Assembly (NCBI RefSeq): GCF_027923555.1 | Contig: NZ_AP025523.1 | Span: 1,612,001-1,676,000 of the forward strand | Source of the DNA: Vulcanimicrobium alpinum | GTDB taxonomy: Bacteria; Vulcanimicrobiota; Vulcanimicrobiia; Vulcanimicrobiales; Vulcanimicrobiaceae | Length of the DNA stretch: 64,000 bases | Reading direction: 5' to 3' | Part shown: piece after piece, positions 6,365-14,402 of the stretch | Layout of the letters: each line of letters starts with the position of its first letter | How positions within the stretch are numbered: position 1 is the first letter of the stretch | Program-made: the position numbers and the translations under genes | The notes under the pieces: model-generated | The model's database searches: none | Told to the model about the DNA's origin: nothing | The model's input: only the letters and a program-made list of their open reading frames with translations

Positions 6365-7653
6365 GGGTCTTCCGGTTTTGTAGTGGGCGGGCGAGAGGAA
6401 ATCGGTCGGCCGTCGTAATGCTACGCCATGCGAGACACCGAATTCATCCGCGGGTTGCTGCGCGTCGAAGATCCTTGGGACGTGACCGAATCAAAGCTCG
6501 ATCTCGAGCGAAATCGGGTCGATGTTCGGCTTGAATGGCAAGGCGCGGGTCGCTGTCCAAAATGCGATCGGGAGTGCCCCAAGCACGATCATCGCGAGCG
6601 CGTCTGGCGTGACCTCGATCTGGCCGGCGACCAACTTTTCTTGCACGCCTCCGTACCCCGGATCGATTGTCCCGAGCACGGCGTCACGACCGTTGCGATT
6701 CCCTGGTCAAGCGGTCGTACCGAGTTTACGTCGCGCTTCGAGCGTTTGGCGATCGCCCTCCTACTCGAGATGTCCGTCGCGGCGGTCGCGCGTCGCTTGG
6801 GCATCAGCTGGGAGCAAGTCGATTCCATTATGCTCCGGGCGGTCGAGCGCGGTAAGCAGCGGCGACTGCCACGTCTTGTGCGGCATCTCGGCATCGACGA
6901 GAAGGCCGTCAAAAAGCGGCATCGGTACTTCACGATCGTGTCCGACTTGGACCGCGGCGAGGTCCTGTGGGTCGGTCGCGGTCGCAAGCGCGAATCGATT
7001 GACGCTTTCTACGACGGCCTTTCGCACGAACAACTTCATGCCATTGAGGGCATCGCGATGGATATGTGGCAGCCGTACTTCGAGTCGACCGTAGCACACG
7101 TGCCCGATGCGGCACGGAAGATCGTCTTCGATAAGTACCACATCACGGCATATCTCACCAAAGCCGTCGATCTCACTCGTCGAGCGATGATGCGTGACAA
7201 GACGCTCGACCGAACGGCATTGAAAGGGACTAAGTATTCCTGGTTGCGCTCGTTTGCGAATCTCGACCGCGACGAACGACGTGATCTGAGCGCCTTGCGG
7301 AGCCAGTACAAACGCCTTGGCCGCGCGTGGTCGATGAAGGAGCACTTTACGGAGTTCTGGCGATATCGGCGTGAGTCCGCAGCGCGTCGTTTCTTTGCCG
7401 ATTGGTACCGGTGGGCGACGCACTCTCAATTGCCCGAAATGATCAGCGTCGCGCGCACGCTCAAACGTCACTTTGCGAACATCATCACGTACATTCGCAA
7501 GCCGATCACCAATGCGGCAGCCGAGAGCCTCAACAGCAAGATCCAAATGATCAAATTCCGCGCGCGCGGCTATCGCAATGAGGGCCGATTTGCAGCGGCG
7601 ATTCTATTCCACTGTGGTGGGCTCGACCTCTTGCCCGCCCACCCGAAGTCCTG
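6365..7653 (+). mobile_element. ISL3-family insertion sequence, about 1.29 kb
   Basis: The element lies between two AACAAAGT direct repeats. Related but imperfect ends can be aligned: the left end contains GGTCTTCCGG and then GTGGGCGGGCGAGAGG (6383-6398), and the right end, read inward, contains GGACTTCGG and then GTGGGCGGGCAAGAGG (7627-7642). The left end carries seven extra bases between the two blocks. One transposase gene fills the element and appears intact. The A of its TGA stop comes from the target duplication. Confidence 0.75.
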
Positions 7654-7654
7654 A
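6428..7654 (+). CDS. ISL3-family transposase
   Basis: A 408-aa transposase. The N-terminus has the ISL3 zinc-binding region (CPKCDRECPKHDHRERVWRD and IDCPEHGV), followed by a helix-turn-helix near SVAAVARRLGISWEQV. The DDE domain starts at HLGIDEKAVKKRHRYFTIVS, continues with AMDMWQPYFES and IVFDKYHI, and ends with the Glu region NAAAESLNSKIQMIK and ARGYRN. The length is normal for the family and no frameshift is visible, so the element may be able to move. Base composition is less GC-rich than in neighbouring chromosomal genes. Confidence 0.93.
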   Translation: MRDTEFIRGLLRVEDPWDVTESKLDLERNRVDVRLEWQGAGRCPKCDRECPKHDHRERVWRDLDLAGDQLFLHASVPRIDCPEHGVTTVAIPWSSGRTEFTSRFERLAIALLLEMSVAAVARRLGISWEQVDSIMLRAVERGKQRRLPRLVRHLGIDEKAVKKRHRYFTIVSDLDRGEVLWVGRGRKRESIDAFYDGLSHEQLHAIEGIAMDMWQPYFESTVAHVPDAARKIVFDKYHITAYLTKAVDLTRRAMMRDKTLDRTALKGTKYSWLRSFANLDRDERRDLSALRSQYKRLGRAWSMKEHFTEFWRYRRESAARRFFADWYRWATHSQLPEMISVARTLKRHFANIITYIRKPITNAAAESLNSKIQMIKFRARGYRNEGRFAAAILFHCGGLDLLPAHPKS

Positions 7655-7689: not shown

Positions 7690-8019
7690 TCAAGCGGTTT
7701 TTTGGGGTTTGATAGGCTTGATACTTGCGGCGATCTTCGCTAGCTCGCCGTGTTTCGCATCATAGAGGTCGACGGACAACTGGAGCCGGAGCCAGGTTTC
7801 CGCATCCATACCAAGAGCGCGCTCGAAGCGGAGAGCAGTATCGATCGTCAGCGCGCGCTTACCATGGATGATCTCCGAAAGGCGCGCCGCCGTAATGCCG
7901 ATATGCGCAGAGAACGCGGACTGCGTGATCCCGAGCGGAACCAGGAATTCCTCGACGAGGATTTCCCCAGGAAGGGTCGGCCGACGATTCGACGGCGTCC
8001 TGAGCGATTTCTGATGCAT
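7690..8019 (-). CDS. higA: HigA-family antitoxin
   Basis: A 109-aa protein with the HigA/VapI Xre-type helix-turn-helix: an N-terminal RRPTLPGEILVEEFLVPLGI followed by TQSAFSAHIGITAARLSEII and HGKRALTIDTALRFERALG, ending with WLRLQLSVDLYDA. Such antitoxins bind and silence the HigB ribosome-dependent mRNA nuclease and repress their own operon. It follows the higB remnant in the usual toxin-first order with about 41 bases between them. The toxin frame is broken, so this antitoxin may be acting alone. Confidence 0.9.
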   Translation of the reverse strand: MHQKSLRTPSNRRPTLPGEILVEEFLVPLGITQSAFSAHIGITAARLSEIIHGKRALTIDTALRFERALGMDAETWLRLQLSVDLYDAKHGELAKIAASIKPIKPQKTA

Positions 8020-8432: not shown

Positions 8433-9815
8433 CTACTTCGCTGCGGGATTGTCGGCCGCCAGGACGCGCGGCGTTATGAAGAAGACGACCTCGTCTTTGT
8501 TGTGCGTCGCTTGGCGATTGCGGAAGAAGCCGCCGAGTACCGGGAGGTCGCCGAGCAGCGGCAGTTTGGTGATCGTCTCGCTGTCGACGTCCTCGAAGAG
8601 GCCGCCGAGCACGATCGTCTCGCCGTCGCGGACGTGCAGGACCGCGTCGACTTTGCGGTTGGCGATGATCGGAAAGCTGCTGTTGAAACCGATGATCGAC
8701 GAGTACTCCGGGTGCAGCTCCGCGGTGATCGCGCCGTCCTCCCCGATCGTCGGCGTGACCCGCAGACGGACCCCGACGTCGATGGTCTGGACGCTGGGGT
8801 AGCCGGTCTGCTGGTTCACGGTGACGACCGGATATTGCGAACCGACGAGCAGCGACGCTTCTCGATTGTTGAGCGTCGCGATCCGCGGCTGCGCGAGGAT
8901 CCGCGCTTTCCCTTTCTGCACGAGCAGGTTGAGCTGCGTGTTCACCACCAGCGAACTCTTGGTCAGCGTGTACGGAAACTGTCCGACCGCGCCGCTCCCC
9001 GCGCCGAAGCCCGCACCGGCGTACTCGATCCCCACGTTGCTCTGATCGTTGACCGGTTCGACGTCGGCAACCCGGACCTCGAACATCACCTGACGCCCCG
9101 GACCGTCGAGCCCGGCCAGCAGCGTGCGCGCCGTTGCCTGCAGTTCCGCGTTCCCGCTGACGACGACGACGTTCTGCCGGTCGTCGGCGACCATCGCTCC
9201 GTCGGGGACGCTTCCTTTGAGCGCACGCAGCGCCTCGCTCGCGCGAACGTTGTGCAGCGCGATCGAGGCTGTCGTAACCGAGCCGCCACGGCCGAACGCC
9301 GGCGCGTCGAGCGCGGCGACGAGCGCGTGCGCTCGCGCAACGGTCGCGTCGCCGCCGGTCACCAACACCGTTCCAGTCCGCTTGTCGCCGACCACGACCG
9401 TCCCGGGAGGAAGGGCGCTTTGCAGCGCCGGGACGACGTCGTCGGGACGCGCGTGCGCGAGAGAAAAGACGTTCGTGCGGGCAGCACCGGCCGCCGCGTC
9501 GTCGGGATAACGGCGGTTCATCGACGCGCTCTCGCCGACCAGCAGGATCGCACCGTCGCGATGGATCTGCAGGCCGTATGCCGAGACGAGCGTCGCCAAC
9601 GCCTCGTCGAACGTCACCCGCGCCAGCCTCAGCGTGATCCGCTGCGGTTTTACGGACCCGTCCGCGACGACGTTGCGGCCCGACTGTGCGCCGAGCAGGC
9701 GGATGACGTCGGCGAGCTCGACCTCGCGTGCGTCCAGCGTGATGCGATCGCCCTGCGCCTGCGCCGGCGACGCCGCGAGCAGAAGGGCGAGTGCGGTCGT
9801 CGCGAGTCGTCGCAT
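8433..9815 (-). CDS. pilQ: type IV pilus secretin PilQ
   Basis: A 460-aa outer-membrane secretin, shorter than proteobacterial PilQ because it lacks AMIN domains. A signal peptide (MRRLATTALALLLAASPAQAQ) is followed by an STN-like domain (ITLDAREVELADVIRLLGAQ), an N1-type domain (TNVFSLAHARPDDVVPALQ) and a second one (TTASIALHNVRASEALRAL). The secretin core from about residue 240 includes VGSQYPVVTVNQQTG, VGVRLRVTPTIGEDG and the signature LPLLGDLPVLGGFFRNR. It would form the pore through which the pilus leaves the cell. It is the last gene of the nine-gene pilus operon, 2 bases after the PilP-like gene. Confidence 0.94.
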   Translation of the reverse strand: MRRLATTALALLLAASPAQAQGDRITLDAREVELADVIRLLGAQSGRNVVADGSVKPQRITLRLARVTFDEALATLVSAYGLQIHRDGAILLVGESASMNRRYPDDAAAGAARTNVFSLAHARPDDVVPALQSALPPGTVVVGDKRTGTVLVTGGDATVARAHALVAALDAPAFGRGGSVTTASIALHNVRASEALRALKGSVPDGAMVADDRQNVVVVSGNAELQATARTLLAGLDGPGRQVMFEVRVADVEPVNDQSNVGIEYAGAGFGAGSGAVGQFPYTLTKSSLVVNTQLNLLVQKGKARILAQPRIATLNNREASLLVGSQYPVVTVNQQTGYPSVQTIDVGVRLRVTPTIGEDGAITAELHPEYSSIIGFNSSFPIIANRKVDAVLHVRDGETIVLGGLFEDVDSETITKLPLLGDLPVLGGFFRNRQATHNKDEVVFFITPRVLAADNPAAK

Positions 9816-9817
9816 CG

Positions 9818-10363
9818 TCAGGGTTCTCCGTGAAGCGTCGGTGCAGGATCGAGTCCGAAGCGGGAACCGTCGGCCAGCGCGATGCCGTCGTCGCGGATCG
9901 CGACGATCGTGCTCGCTCCGAACGCGTCGCCGACGGTGAGGAGCCGGCTCGTCCCGCCGTCATCGATCAGCGCGAAGGGGTGGCGGCCGGCGACGACCGC
10001 GGTGAGGCGCGGTGCGGCGAACGGGCGCGGCGCGCCGTCCGCTCCCGCGTTGGGCGGAAGAGCGCGCACGAAGCCCGGGATCGCGGGGATCGCCGGCAGC
10101 GCAGGGGGCGCCGCGGACACCGCCGCGGGCGATGGCGCCGGTGACGTTAGCGCGATGCCGCCGGCGAACGGATCCCGATGCGGCGTGACGAGCGGGTCGT
10201 CGGCGGCGAGCACGGCCGCCGACGGCATCGCGGCGGGCACCTGAAGTGCCGCGGCGCTGCGCGCGACGATCGGGGTCGTCGCGAAGGCACCGGCCAGCGA
10301 CGCGAGGGCGAGCGCGGCGAGGAGCACGCGTTCAGTGCGGCCGAGTGCGAACACGGTCGTCAT
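9818..10363 (-). CDS. pilP: PilP/GspC-like pilus assembly protein
   Basis: A 181-aa protein with one N-terminal membrane segment (RVLLAALALASLAGAFAT), a long Ala/Pro-rich linker and a small C-terminal beta domain (APRLTAVVAGRHPFALIDDG, then LTVGDAFGASTIVAIRDDG). This is the layout of PilP and GspC, which link the inner-membrane PilMNO platform to the secretin. Similarity is structural rather than strong; position between PilO and PilQ supports the call. The ATG at 10363 overlaps the end of pilO by 32 bases; an upstream in-frame start at 10402 is less likely. Confidence 0.75.
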   Translation of the reverse strand: MTTVFALGRTERVLLAALALASLAGAFATTPIVARSAAALQVPAAMPSAAVLAADDPLVTPHRDPFAGGIALTSPAPSPAAVSAAPPALPAIPAIPGFVRALPPNAGADGAPRPFAAPRLTAVVAGRHPFALIDDGGTSRLLTVGDAFGASTIVAIRDDGIALADGSRFGLDPAPTLHGEP

Positions 10364-10901
10364 CCTTCGTCTGGGGCTCGAGCGCGACGCGAAGGGTCGC
10401 ACTCAGGGTGGCATCGCCGCCGTCGACGCTCTTGCGCGCGAGCGAGGCGATCTCGACCGCGGCGGGTATCCGTCCGCGCGAGAGCGCGCGCATCGTCGCG
10501 AGAACGTCGACGTACGACCCTTCCAGGGTCACGTCGAGCGGCAGGGCGGCGTCGCCGGGCGCGCCCGGCTGCGCGTTCGCGGCGATCGTTGCGAAGCGCG
10601 TGCGATGCACCGCCGCGGCGACGGCCGCGTCGCGCAGGAACGTTGCGACCGCCCGCGTCGGATCGGCAGCAACGTCGACGCCGCGGAGCCGCGCTTGCAC
10701 GCGCGCTTGTTCGCGCTCGAGTGCGGGCCGCATACCGAGGACCGCACGATCGGCGACGGTGCGTTCGGCAAGGGTCGCGTTTGCGGCGAGCTGATCGCCG
10801 ATGCGCGACTCGACGGGGCGGAACGCGAACGTATAGCCCGCCGCGACGACAAGCACCGCGGCGAACGCGATGACGCGGGCGTCGCCGGCGTTCGGGCTCA
10901 C
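10332..10901 (-). CDS. pilO: PilO-like pilus assembly protein
   Basis: A 189-aa protein with an N-terminal membrane helix (VIAFAAVLVVAAGYTFAF), a coiled-coil stretch (about residues 30-75) and a ferredoxin-like C-terminal half (LPLDVTLEGSYVDVLATMRA). PilO pairs with PilN in the periplasm to hold the alignment complex together. The GTG start at 10901 overlaps the pilN stop by 4 bases (GTGA). Confidence 0.82.
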   Translation of the reverse strand: MSPNAGDARVIAFAAVLVVAAGYTFAFRPVESRIGDQLAANATLAERTVADRAVLGMRPALEREQARVQARLRGVDVAADPTRAVATFLRDAAVAAAVHRTRFATIAANAQPGAPGDAALPLDVTLEGSYVDVLATMRALSRGRIPAAVEIASLARKSVDGGDATLSATLRVALEPQTKDDDRVRTRPH

Positions 10902-11443
10902 GGACGCCGCTCCAGGGCGATCGCGTAGACGACACCCGCATGCACGGGATCGCCGTGGACCGACAGGAGCCGCGCCGACCGATACGGGCGCAGCGACGTC
11001 AGCGACGTCATCGCCGTACCGACCGCCGAGAGCCGCGCGCCGCGGCCTTCGACGGCAACCACGGTGCGTTCGACGCGCAGGGACGTCAGCCACGCGTCGG
11101 CGGGCAGATGATTGCCGAGCGCCGCGATCTCGCTTGCTCGCCGTGCACCCGAGGCACGCACCCGCACGATGCGCGCAGCGACACCGCGCAGCCGTTCGAC
11201 GTCGCGCTGGAGAACGCGCACCGAGGCGACGTCGCGCTCTGCTCGCGCCAACTCTGCGGCATAGAGCGCACCGTCCGCCTGCGCAGCGCGAAGCCGGAGT
11301 CCTTGGACGCCGCCGCACGCGCAGACGAGCACGACGGCGCCGGCGAGCGCCGCAAGCGGGCCGCGCAGGCGCGCAGGCGGCGGCGCTGGGGCGACGCCGA
11401 GCGTGCGTTCGAGCGGCGAGATCAAAAAGTTGACGCGGTTCAC
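10898..11443 (-). CDS. pilN: PilN-like pilus assembly protein
   Basis: A 181-aa bitopic protein. The short cytoplasmic N-terminus VNRVNFLISPLERTLG matches the PilN segment that binds the PilM groove (consensus INLLP). A membrane segment (LAALAGAVVLVCACGGVQGL), a helical region and a C-terminal fold with LPADAWLTSLRVERTVVAVEG follow. It starts at a GTG that overlaps the pilM stop by 4 bases and ends in the same way into pilO. Confidence 0.83.
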   Translation of the reverse strand: MNRVNFLISPLERTLGVAPAPPPARLRGPLAALAGAVVLVCACGGVQGLRLRAAQADGALYAAELARAERDVASVRVLQRDVERLRGVAARIVRVRASGARRASEIAALGNHLPADAWLTSLRVERTVVAVEGRGARLSAVGTAMTSLTSLRPYRSARLLSVHGDPVHAGVVYAIALERRP

Positions 11444-12369
11444 GCCGCGCACTCCCACATCGCAAGGCCGTAGGCGAGCGCCCAATCGGGCGAGGCGGCG
11501 CGCACGACGTCGGCGGGCAGCGCGTGCGTGCCGTGCAGGGATGCCGTCATGACCGGGATCCCCGCCGCGCGTTCGAGCGCGTCGGCGAACCCGGCCAGCC
11601 GCGAACCGTTGCCGGCTAGGACGAGCGACGTGACGTCCGCGCGCGCCGCGGCACGCGTCTCGGCCAGCGCCTGCGCGAGGTGTTCGACCAGCGCATCCCG
11701 CACGTGCTCGCCGGCGCCCGCCATGCCCATCGTGCGCTTTCGCTGTTCGGCGGTGACGCGATCGACGCCGAGCGCGTCGGCGATCGCGCCGGTGAGGCTC
11801 GCTCCGCCGATCGGCATCACGCGCTGGGTGGGGACGGGTTCGTCGCGCACGATGAGGATCGTTGCGCCTGCGCCGACGTCGACGATCGCGGCGGCTTCGG
11901 GGATAGCGCGGAGCAGAGCGAGCGCGGGGTGATCGACGGCAACCGGCCGCAGCCCGGCGCGTCGCGCCAGCGCGCTGCGTGCCTGCACGTCGGCGCGCGG
12001 CGCGGTCGCGATCGCGCATCGCTGCGCGTCGATCGGGACGACGCGCACTGCGGCGTCGTCCAGCGGATACGGCACCGAACGCGATGCTTCAAAGCGCGCG
12101 GCGCGTTCGCGTTCGCGTCGTGCGAGCGGCGGAAAGGTCGCGGTGCGGAGCAGCGCGTCGCGTCCGGCGGCGGCGAGAACGCAGCGGCGCTCTCGCGTCC
12201 CGAGTTCCTCGAATGCGTCGACGAGCGCGGCGCACGGGTCCGGAGCCGCGGGACGCGACGCAACCGCGCAAAGCGCGAGGTCTCCGTCTCCCGTGCGCTC
12301 GACCAGCGCGATACGCACGCGATCGTCGCCCAGATCGATGCCGAGCGGGAACGTCCGTGCGCGGCTCAT
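11440..12369 (-). CDS. pilM: PilM, actin-like ATPase of type IV pilus
   Basis: A 309-aa actin/FtsA-fold protein. Phosphate-1 loop GIDLGDDRVRIALVE, phosphate-2 region AAIVDVGAGATILIVRD and the adenosine motif region SLVLAGNGSRLAGFADAL are in the expected order. PilM is the cytoplasmic ring component that recruits PilN. The ATG at 12369 overlaps the stop of the prepilin peptidase by 4 bases. It is somewhat shorter than proteobacterial PilM (about 350 aa). Confidence 0.87.
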   Translation of the reverse strand: MSRARTFPLGIDLGDDRVRIALVERTGDGDLALCAVASRPAAPDPCAALVDAFEELGTRERRCVLAAAGRDALLRTATFPPLARRERERAARFEASRSVPYPLDDAAVRVVPIDAQRCAIATAPRADVQARSALARRAGLRPVAVDHPALALLRAIPEAAAIVDVGAGATILIVRDEPVPTQRVMPIGGASLTGAIADALGVDRVTAEQRKRTMGMAGAGEHVRDALVEHLAQALAETRAAARADVTSLVLAGNGSRLAGFADALERAAGIPVMTASLHGTHALPADVVRAASPDWALAYGLAMWECAA

Positions 12370-12800
12370 GCGAAGACCGACGTGAGCGTTTCGACGGCCG
12401 TCCCGGCGGCGAGGAACGGCCCGAACGGGATCGCATCGCGGCGGCCGGCGTGGCGCAAGCCGAGGAGTGCCGTCGCATAGATCCCGCCGAGCACGAACGC
12501 CGCGCCGAGCGCGACGATCCCGCCGGCGACGCCGCAGCCGGCGCCGATCGCGACGCCGAGCTTGACATCGCCGAGCCCGAGACCGCGTCCGCCCGTCGAT
12601 AGGTGCAGCGCGAGTAGCGTCCCGCCCGTGCAGACGCCGCCGGCGAGCGCCGGCGTCAGCTCGCCGCCGACCGCAGCCGATGCGAGCGCGGCGATCGCCG
12701 TCGTTCGCGTCAGCGCGTTGGGCAGCACCCCGGTGCGCGCGTCGACGGCGGCGGCCGCAACCGCGCCGGCGCACGCGACGGCCGCGGAGACCGCGCTCAT
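12366..12800 (-). CDS. type 4 prepilin peptidase (A24), peptidase domain only
   Basis: A 144-aa polytopic membrane protein with the two aspartate sites of A24 peptidases: D20 in AAAAVDARTGVLPNALT and the GLGLGDVKLGVAIGAGCG motif. It lacks the N-terminal methyltransferase domain and zinc cysteines found in PilD, so it resembles the short TadV/CpaA-type enzymes. It most likely cleaves the prepilin at 13893-14402, encoded in the same operon. Pilin N-methylation would need another enzyme. Confidence 0.85.
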   Translation of the reverse strand: MSAVSAAVACAGAVAAAAVDARTGVLPNALTRTTAIAALASAAVGGELTPALAGGVCTGGTLLALHLSTGGRGLGLGDVKLGVAIGAGCGVAGGIVALGAAFVLGGIYATALLGLRHAGRRDAIPFGPFLAAGTAVETLTSVFA

Positions 12801-13243
12801 GCGCCGGCACCCCGGTTGGCAAGCCGCTCGGCGAGGCGCGCGAAGCGGGAGTCGTGCGCGACCGCCGCGGCCAGCGCGAAGTCACGTGCTGCGCTCTTCC
12901 AGCGGCGCAATCGCTGCGCTGCCAGGGCACGATCGACGAGCAGGTTCGCGTCGCGAGGCGCATGCTGCAGCGCCGCCGACGCGATCGCGTACGAACGCGC
13001 GGCATCGCTGTCGCCGTGCCGCATCAGCAGCGAGAACGCCAGCCGGTCCGCGGCGGTCCGCGACACCGGATCGAGACGCATCGCGCGATCGTACGCGCCG
13101 ACCGCGCCGTCGATGTCGCCCGTGCGCAGCCGGTCGTCGCCGCGCGTTACGAGTGCCGACGCAACCTGTGCGTGAAACAGAAAGGCAGCGGAAACCAGCG
13201 CAACGAGGGCGACCGCGGCGCGCCGCTCCGGCGGGATCGTCAC
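12797..13243 (-). CDS. TPR-containing membrane protein
   Basis: A 148-aa protein with one N-terminal membrane segment (VALVALVSAAFLFHAQV) and about three tetratricopeptide-like helix pairs (GDIDGAVGAYDRAMRLDP; YAIASAALQHAPRDANLLVD; WKSAARDFALAAAVAHDS). TPR proteins such as PilF help secretin assembly in other pilus systems, so a scaffold role is plausible but inferred. Both ends overlap their neighbours by 4 bases. Confidence 0.75.
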   Translation of the reverse strand: MTIPPERRAAVALVALVSAAFLFHAQVASALVTRGDDRLRTGDIDGAVGAYDRAMRLDPVSRTAADRLAFSLLMRHGDSDAARSYAIASAALQHAPRDANLLVDRALAAQRLRRWKSAARDFALAAAVAHDSRFARLAERLANRGAGA

Positions 13244-13896
13244 GCGAGCGCTCCGTACAGCGCGCCCAGCGCGAGCATCAGCGTCCCGCCGATCACGTTC
13301 GGGACCGGCGTTGCGCCGAGCCGTGCGAACGGCGCGCGGACGCGCGAGCCGGCGGCGGCCAGCGCGATCAGCGGCGCGACGTGTCCCGCGGCGAACGCGG
13401 CCATGAGCGCCGCGCCGGCGGACGCGTTGCCGCCGAGGCTCGTCATTCCGGCGATCGCCGCGACGACCGGCGTGCAGCACGGAGAGACGACGCACGCGCT
13501 CGATGCTCCGAGCAGCAGCGTCCCGCCGACGCTCGAGCGGCGCGGTGCGTTCTCAGCGGCGCAGCGATGCGCCGGACTGCGGAATAGCACGATCGCGCCG
13601 CCCGCGATGAGCACCGCCGCGAGCGCCGCGTCGATCGCCGTCGACCACGCCTGCAGGGCACCGATCGCACCGGCCAGCGAGCCCAGCGCCACGTACGTGA
13701 GCACGATACCCGCCGCGAACGTCGCCGTGACGCGCCACGGATGCAGCGACGTTCCGGCAAGTGCGACGATCGCAACATAGCGCGGGGCGACGCAGGGGCC
13801 GACGCTGGAGGCGGCACCGGCGAGCGCGACCAGCGGATACGCGCCCGGGCCGCCGGAACTCACCGCGCGCATCGCGCTTGCGAACGTGTCGATCAC
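13240..13896 (-). CDS. CcdA/DsbD-like thiol-disulfide membrane protein
   Basis: A 218-aa protein with about six membrane helices. It has the two cysteine sites of CcdA: SSVGPCVAPRYVAIVALAG in the first helix and SACVVSPCCTPVVAAIAG in the fourth. CcdA moves reducing power from cytoplasmic thioredoxin to extracytoplasmic thiol proteins. Inside a pilus operon, and directly after a four-cysteine pilin, a role in pilin or secretin disulfide handling is likely; cytochrome c maturation is the alternative but no such genes are nearby. The GTG start overlaps the pilin stop by 4 bases. Confidence 0.82.
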   Translation of the reverse strand: MIDTFASAMRAVSSGGPGAYPLVALAGAASSVGPCVAPRYVAIVALAGTSLHPWRVTATFAAGIVLTYVALGSLAGAIGALQAWSTAIDAALAAVLIAGGAIVLFRSPAHRCAAENAPRRSSVGGTLLLGASSACVVSPCCTPVVAAIAGMTSLGGNASAGAALMAAFAAGHVAPLIALAAAGSRVRAPFARLGATPVPNVIGGTLMLALGALYGALA

Positions 13897-14402
13897 GGCG
13901 CGGCCTGCAGACCTGCGCCGGCGACGTACTGGATCTTCGTCGCCGTGCAGTTCGTGCCGCAGACGGAGCCGCTCGCACCGCCGCTGACCGGAACCTTCGC
14001 CAGCGTCGATCCGACGTGCACGCCCGGGCAGGTGATCGTGTAGGTCGCAGGCGCACCGCCCGTCGCCTGCGTCGTCGTGAGACTGTAGAGACCGCTGGTG
14101 CTCTGCGCCGCCGGATCCTTCGGCGTGTTGCTCAGATACGAGACGCCGTTGACCGTGAAGAGCGCCGGCTGCACGCCTGCCGCCGACGCGGTCGGATAGA
14201 CTTGATTGTCGGCGTAGTAGAGTTCGAGCGCGGTCGCGATCGCGCGCATGTTGGACTCGCACGCCGCGGTCTGCGCCTGCGAACGCGCGTTGACGAAGTT
14301 GGGGATGAGAATCCCGGCGAGGATCGCGATGATCGCGACGACGATCATCAGCTCGATCAGCGTGAAACCGCGCTCGGCCTCGCGCGCGTCGATTCGGTAC
14401 AC
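13893..14402 (-). CDS. type IV major-type prepilin
   Basis: A 169-aa prepilin with a charged 12-residue leader (VYRIDAREAERG) and the N-terminal methylation signature GFTLIELMIVVAIIAILAG, including Glu at +5. The mature part has a long N-terminal helix (NARSQAQTAACESNMRAIAT) and a globular domain with four cysteines (in AACESN, ITCPGV and SVCGTNC), enough for two disulfides. The GTG start at 14402 has a good GGAGG site upstream. As first gene of the operon it is probably the most expressed. Confidence 0.92.
   Translation of the reverse strand: MYRIDAREAERGFTLIELMIVVAIIAILAGILIPNFVNARSQAQTAACESNMRAIATALELYYADNQVYPTASAAGVQPALFTVNGVSYLSNTPKDPAAQSTSGLYSLTTTQATGGAPATYTITCPGVHVGSTLAKVPVSGGASGSVCGTNCTATKIQYVAGAGLQAAP

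Follow-up and report, generated by a model that had tools for sequence, protein, structure and literature searches.

To our knowledge, the pilin disulfides described so far are the work of oxidising enzymes with general roles (DsbA/DsbB, BdbDC), BdbDC being itself an oxidising pair of the DsbA/DsbB type. Known CcdA/DsbD proteins transport reducing electrons and usually work through a thioredoxin-fold partner; in System II cytochrome c maturation, for instance, CcdA serves ResA/CcsX and apocytochrome c, and its gene usually lies near cytochrome or ccs genes. On the pilin side, the major pilin ComGC of Bacillus subtilis carries Cys36 and Cys76 placed for a stabilising disulfide, with residues counted from the mature N-terminus (PMC7212644), and competence in that organism requires the bdbDC operon, which encodes a thiol-disulfide system, according to a reference cited in the same paper (PMC7212644). 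On the CcdA side, Streptococcus gordonii offers a dedicated CcdA co-encoded with extracytoplasmic clients, CcdA1 and CcdA2 occurring with SdbB, Sgo_1177, and MsrAB and reducing SdbB and Sgo_1177, not MsrAB itself (PMC7034828). A literature search linking CcdA to type IV pili, whose coverage of subscription journals was thin, found nothing. The locus described below brings together a known protein family and an operon of a known type; what appears to be unreported is their combination and the accompanying co-variation.

The window (the whole 64,000-nucleotide stretch of Vulcanimicrobium alpinum DNA that was analysed) has a G+C content of 68.6% and comes from a complete genome of 3,508,363 bases. 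It contains a minus-strand operon that runs from pilin through ccdA, TPR, prepilin peptidase, and pilM, N, O, and P to pilQ, ending at 8433, with the following features:

13893..14402, minus strand: type IV pilin, probably the major pilin (GspG/ComGC-like N-terminus), from profile matches, alignments, and an AlphaFold model
13893..13896, minus strand: GTGA, the 4-base overlap of the pilin stop and the ccdA start (GTG)
13240..13896, minus strand: CcdA/DsbD_TM-type membrane thiol protein, 218 aa (PF02683 above cut-off; 5VKV alignment)
12797..13243, minus strand: membrane-anchored TPR protein with zero cysteines, gene 2 of the ccdA-TPR cassette (PF07719 TPR_2, E 9.6e-8)
12366..12800, minus strand: prepilin peptidase catalytic domain (A24), short form (PF01478, E 7.8e-10)
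11440..12369, minus strand: PilM, from orthologues, with the start inferred via an ATGA overlap with the peptidase gene
10898..11443, minus strand: PilN-like, start approximate, from the reading frame and the gene order of relatives
10332..10901, minus strand: PilO-like, start approximate, from the reading frame and the gene order of relatives
9818..10402, minus strand: PilP/GspC-like (NF041515 GspC_delta, E 1.2e-4, under cut-off)
8433..9815, minus strand: PilQ secretin (PF00263, E 2e-44; TIGR02515 PilQ, E 1.8e-60)

The coordinates, strand, and 4-base overlap that a first-pass annotation gave for the pilin and CcdA-like genes are all correct against the window sequence, as is its placement of the latter gene inside a type IV pilus operon: ccdA-TPR lies between pilin and peptidase, and pilMNOPQ lies downstream. 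A small correction is that a TPR gene (12797-13243), part of the same cassette, stands between ccdA and the peptidase gene. The GTGA overlap suggests translational coupling of pilin and ccdA. The arrangement shares with the standard pilMNOPQ operon its common order of pilin, prepilin peptidase, and PilM to PilQ, but departs from it in the extra ccdA-TPR cassette that separates pilin from peptidase; the operon of the sister clade is without this cassette. Just past the end of the pilus operon, reading of the sequence alone picked out a transposase-like gene (6428-7654) and a HigA-like antitoxin frame (7690-8019).

The pilin has the marks of the type IV class, namely a class III leader ending at G12 (PF07963 N_methyl, E 5.5e-9; TIGR02532 over cut-off), Glu5, a hydrophobic N-terminal helix, and prepilin peptidase and pilMNOPQ partners. 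At about 157 residues it is ordinary in appearance: its AlphaFold model (pLDDT 85) is that of a standard pilin, in which a long helix alpha-1 spans residues 15-66 and beta strands are present, and the top fold match is Thermus PilA4 (6XXD, E 2.7e-3). When the pilin was searched against its own genome, one other match, a weak one, was returned, so that the window protein is probably the major pilin. Its cysteines occupy precursor positions 48, 125, 148, and 152 (mature 36, 113, 136, and 140), all four downstream of the G12 cleavage site, as had been claimed for the mature protein. Cys36 sits in helix alpha-1 and Cys113 in the motif CPGxH; both are invariant in the 53 ccdA-paired pilins and also in 44 aligned pilins. 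Because ComGC residues are likewise counted from the mature N-terminus, the helix cysteine is at the same position as ComGC Cys36, and with a second invariant cysteine in the head a ComGC-like disulfide is predicted. The ComGC model matches the window pilin with a score under its cut-off, and the latter differs from ComGC in being a larger type IV pilin that belongs to a pilMNOPQ system, and in having a partner of CcdA type, encoded in the pilin operon, in place of the oxidising pair BdbDC. The second pair (136/140) is restricted to 13 of the 53 paired pilins, from three related genera that form one clade; the other 40 have two cysteines only, which leaves nothing to isomerise inside a single pilin molecule.

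The CcdA-like protein matches PF02683 (DsbD_TM) with 33.8 bits against a cut-off of 27.1, and its C35 and C140 align with both catalytic cysteines of Thermus thermophilus CcdA (5VKV; E 1.3e-16, both halves), GPCVAPR corresponding to SPCVLPL and SPCCTP to TPCIGP. The two CcdA cysteine sites reported in the first-pass annotation are therefore both present. Five cysteines (35, 112, 135, 140, and 141) occur in the protein, C112 in a loop, and a membrane cysteine within a PC motif in each half is seen in 52 of 53 orthologues. C141 is present in the same proportion as C35 and C140 (52/53), and all three are among the nine invariant columns of an alignment of 41 orthologues, although identity to relatives is as low as 25-57%. 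The AlphaFold model is all-helical (pLDDT 88); a Foldseek search of it against the PDB gave zero significant fold matches, so that assignment to the CcdA family rests on sequence profiles. While the domain and both catalytic cysteines are those of the CcdA/DsbD_TM family, the protein differs from T. thermophilus CcdA in its separate clade, its GPCxAPR and SPCCTP motifs, its linkage to a pilin, and an operon that encodes no thioredoxin partner. The genome has two more ccdA genes, both canonical and both away from this operon, one near lgt/lspA-type housekeeping genes and one near c-type cytochrome genes, and in the tree the pilin-linked CcdAs form a single clade (100/99) separate from canonical CcdA. 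A chance open reading frame was also considered for the ccdA-like gene and ruled out by its pilin-paired orthologues in 53 loci.

The survey of relatives that the first-pass annotation had proposed, carried out on 117 genomes of the class, found the pair conserved: of the 53 pilus-operon loci that carry this CcdA subfamily, all in family f1, 53 have it directly behind a pilin. The distance from pilin stop to ccdA start ranges from -14 to +6 bases across these loci and is a 4-bp overlap in 27 of them, and a TPR gene follows ccdA wherever automatic gene calling worked. The pairing with cysteine-free pilins that had been named as contrary evidence was looked for and is absent among the 53 loci. 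In genome G112 no ccdA was seen because the contig stops just past the pilin, and G064 (L131) was set aside because the stretch examined has a lone secretin gene surrounded by housekeeping genes and lacks a pilin operon. In most of the genus g5 genomes searched, this ccdA, PilM, and the pilin were all without a match. One genome, G077, has a second pilin-ccdA pair in a different setting (ATPase, platform, pilin, ccdA; not in front of pilMNOPQ), in which the pilin keeps its Cys pair and the CcdA keeps its two catalytic cysteines. This second pair (L056, contig 230) is paralogous, and its pilin has an unusual leader, EQGVTLWELL. Beyond the class, 84,980 genomes were scanned with a pattern whose sensitivity is limited to two peptide motifs, and matches came only from Eremiobacterota records and from G070.

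The presence of ccdA follows one cysteine pair of the pilin. In eight f1 genomes that form one clade (L132, L133, L134, L135, L136, L138, L141, and L142), the operon is without ccdA and TPR and runs from pilin to peptidase and from pilM onward, the L134 peptidase having been skipped by the automatic gene call. The pilins of all eight have neither Cys36 nor Cys113 (e.g., VSNTQAN against AACESN and LEDPVMYD against ITCPGVHV) but retain a C-terminal cysteine pair resembling 136/140, and this provides an internal control, in which ccdA is seen to accompany the 36/113 pair and no other. The expectation that cysteine number co-varies with ccdA was accordingly right for these two cysteines and wrong for the other two, and the earlier description of four cysteines making two disulfides proved too broad, the second pair being confined to 13 of 53 loci and a similar one existing in ccdA-minus operons. 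Pilins of families f2 and f3, which have no linked ccdA, possess Cys36 and lack Cys113. The helix cysteine stands in ACESN/ACEGN, without the CPGxH cysteine, in pilins of both f2 (L137, L143) and f3 (L139, L140), and in the two f2 pilins it is the sole cysteine.

The weight of this correlation depends on phylogeny. On PilM+PilQ trees, two changes of the ccdA label are required, most readily taken as a gain and then a loss inside the ccdA+ clade, in the lineage that is sister to the group of the window; in the AU test a single-event (single-clade) alternative stands (p 0.105), and the independent-pairs test, in which one vector served for both traits, contains just two independent comparisons. 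The perfect match across some 60 loci therefore reflects about two events, not sixty. There is also one exception on the CcdA side, G071 (L125), whose linked CcdA is without any catalytic cysteine while its pilin pair is kept.

A related cassette is found away from pilins. In family f3, a CcdA-TPR pair with no adjoining pilin encodes a CcdA without catalytic cysteines, SPSSVPR and APDATP replacing the PC motifs, and this CcdA is sister to the pilin-linked clade (96/88). With the cysteines lost where the gene is unlinked, it follows that CcdA cysteines persist where the gene is linked to a Cys-pair pilin, G071 being the one exception. The f3 cassette, a pseudo-CcdA cassette maintained minus its catalytic residues, adjoins monothiol-glutaredoxin-like and BolA-like genes (L077, L079, L074, L082, and L086), which were named by reading.

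Slightly better than an even chance is given to the explanation that the ccdA product is a dedicated CcdA-type thiol relay that acts on the pilin disulfide before assembly, presumably in the reductive direction. It is favoured because the protein is of CcdA type and has the two catalytic cysteines, because its gene invariably accompanies the pilin gene, and because its presence tracks Cys36/Cys113. Further support comes from the two canonical ccdA genes elsewhere, which would cover general use; from the single clade of pilin-linked CcdAs, distinct from canonical CcdA; from the second G077 pair, with its pilin Cys pair and CcdA cysteines kept; from the loss of the cysteines in the unlinked f3 CcdA; from the joint lack of ccdA, PilM, and pilin in most g5 genomes searched; and from the precedent of ComGC Cys36-Cys76. 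The same explanation is weakened by the small number of independent events, by the G071 CcdA, which lost its catalytic cysteines while the pilin pair remained, by the 40 pilins whose two cysteines offer nothing to isomerise, by the Foldseek search of the CcdA model with its zero significant matches, and by the lack of a thioredoxin-fold partner gene in the operon. This last point also separates the locus from S. gordonii, where the relay uses a thioredoxin-like lipoprotein and a non-pilin client; the window operon encodes no such mediator.

Under the relay explanation, the pilin would be held in the inner membrane before assembly with its globular head outside, and one disulfide would join Cys36 of helix alpha-1 to Cys113 of CPGxH, like ComGC Cys36-Cys76. 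Electrons would pass from cytoplasmic thioredoxin to the C35/C140 pair of the CcdA-like protein and then to the pilin pair, with or without a secreted TlpA-like protein, encoded elsewhere, as intermediary; two such proteins, L235 and L237, are found in the genome. The outcome may be that wrong or intermolecular disulfides are reduced, that the pilin is kept reduced until assembly, or that it is repaired following retraction, and the TPR protein may keep CcdA and pilin together close to the assembly machine. It is more speculative, and doubtful, that the relay sets the redox state of the one pilin disulfide such that pilus assembly or retraction follows thioredoxin state (e.g., in response to light or oxygen).

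Other explanations account for parts of these observations. The ccdA-TPR cassette might be a pilus assembly or stability factor in the membrane, mainly a scaffold, with thiol chemistry secondary or dispensable. The cysteine-free CcdA-TPR pairs maintained in f3 and the cysteine-free version kept in the pilin operon of G071 leave room for such a role, as does a weak PilW match, TPR proteins of the PilW/PilF type being known to function in pilus biogenesis; but C35, C140, and C141 belong to the small set of columns that stay invariant at 25-57% identity, ccdA is missing from precisely those operons whose pilin is without the Cys pair, and the f3 cassette does not adjoin a pilin, so that a scaffold is regarded as unlikely, if the most credible of the alternatives. 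Less probable again is that the CcdA-like protein is the oxidant that makes the pilin disulfide in place of DsbB or VKOR. No ordinary oxidative route is seen in the complete genome that holds the window (G000), where searches gave no DsbB, VKOR, or exported DsbA and the sole DsbA-like protein has no visible signal peptide. Against this, CcdA/DsbD proteins carry reducing electrons and a quinone site is not evident here, and VKOR is also present in most relatives with the pair, a comparison that is soft because the VKORs seen are of a short form with one CxxC. Across the class, VKOR occurs in 81 of 117 genomes and in none of the 11 genomes of the window's genus, g1, which also has four-cysteine pilins.

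An ordinary CcdA, engaged in cytochrome c maturation or general periplasmic reduction and located in the pilus operon by chance, would explain the shared domain family (PF02683). It is nonetheless given a slim chance, as two canonical ccdA genes lie elsewhere in the genome, and as the copies next to pilins group in a separate clade (100/99) and are missing wherever the pilin lacks the cysteine pair; the genomic context likewise points away from System II, the neighbour being a pilin in 53 of 53 loci. Most improbable of all is the proposal of the first-pass annotation that the cysteines and CcdA are signs of a modified conductive or adhesive pilus, for which zero support was found: the pilin is an ordinary one whose closest fold is Thermus PilA4, and the likely host, Vulcanimicrobium alpinus WC8-2, is a phototactic glider that uses type IV pili (PMC9758169). 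If the dedicated relay is real, the pilus would possess a disulfide-handling partner of its own, and CcdA paralogues would be able to specialise for a single client; the family probably includes a cultured species with pili that drive phototaxis, which makes the idea testable.
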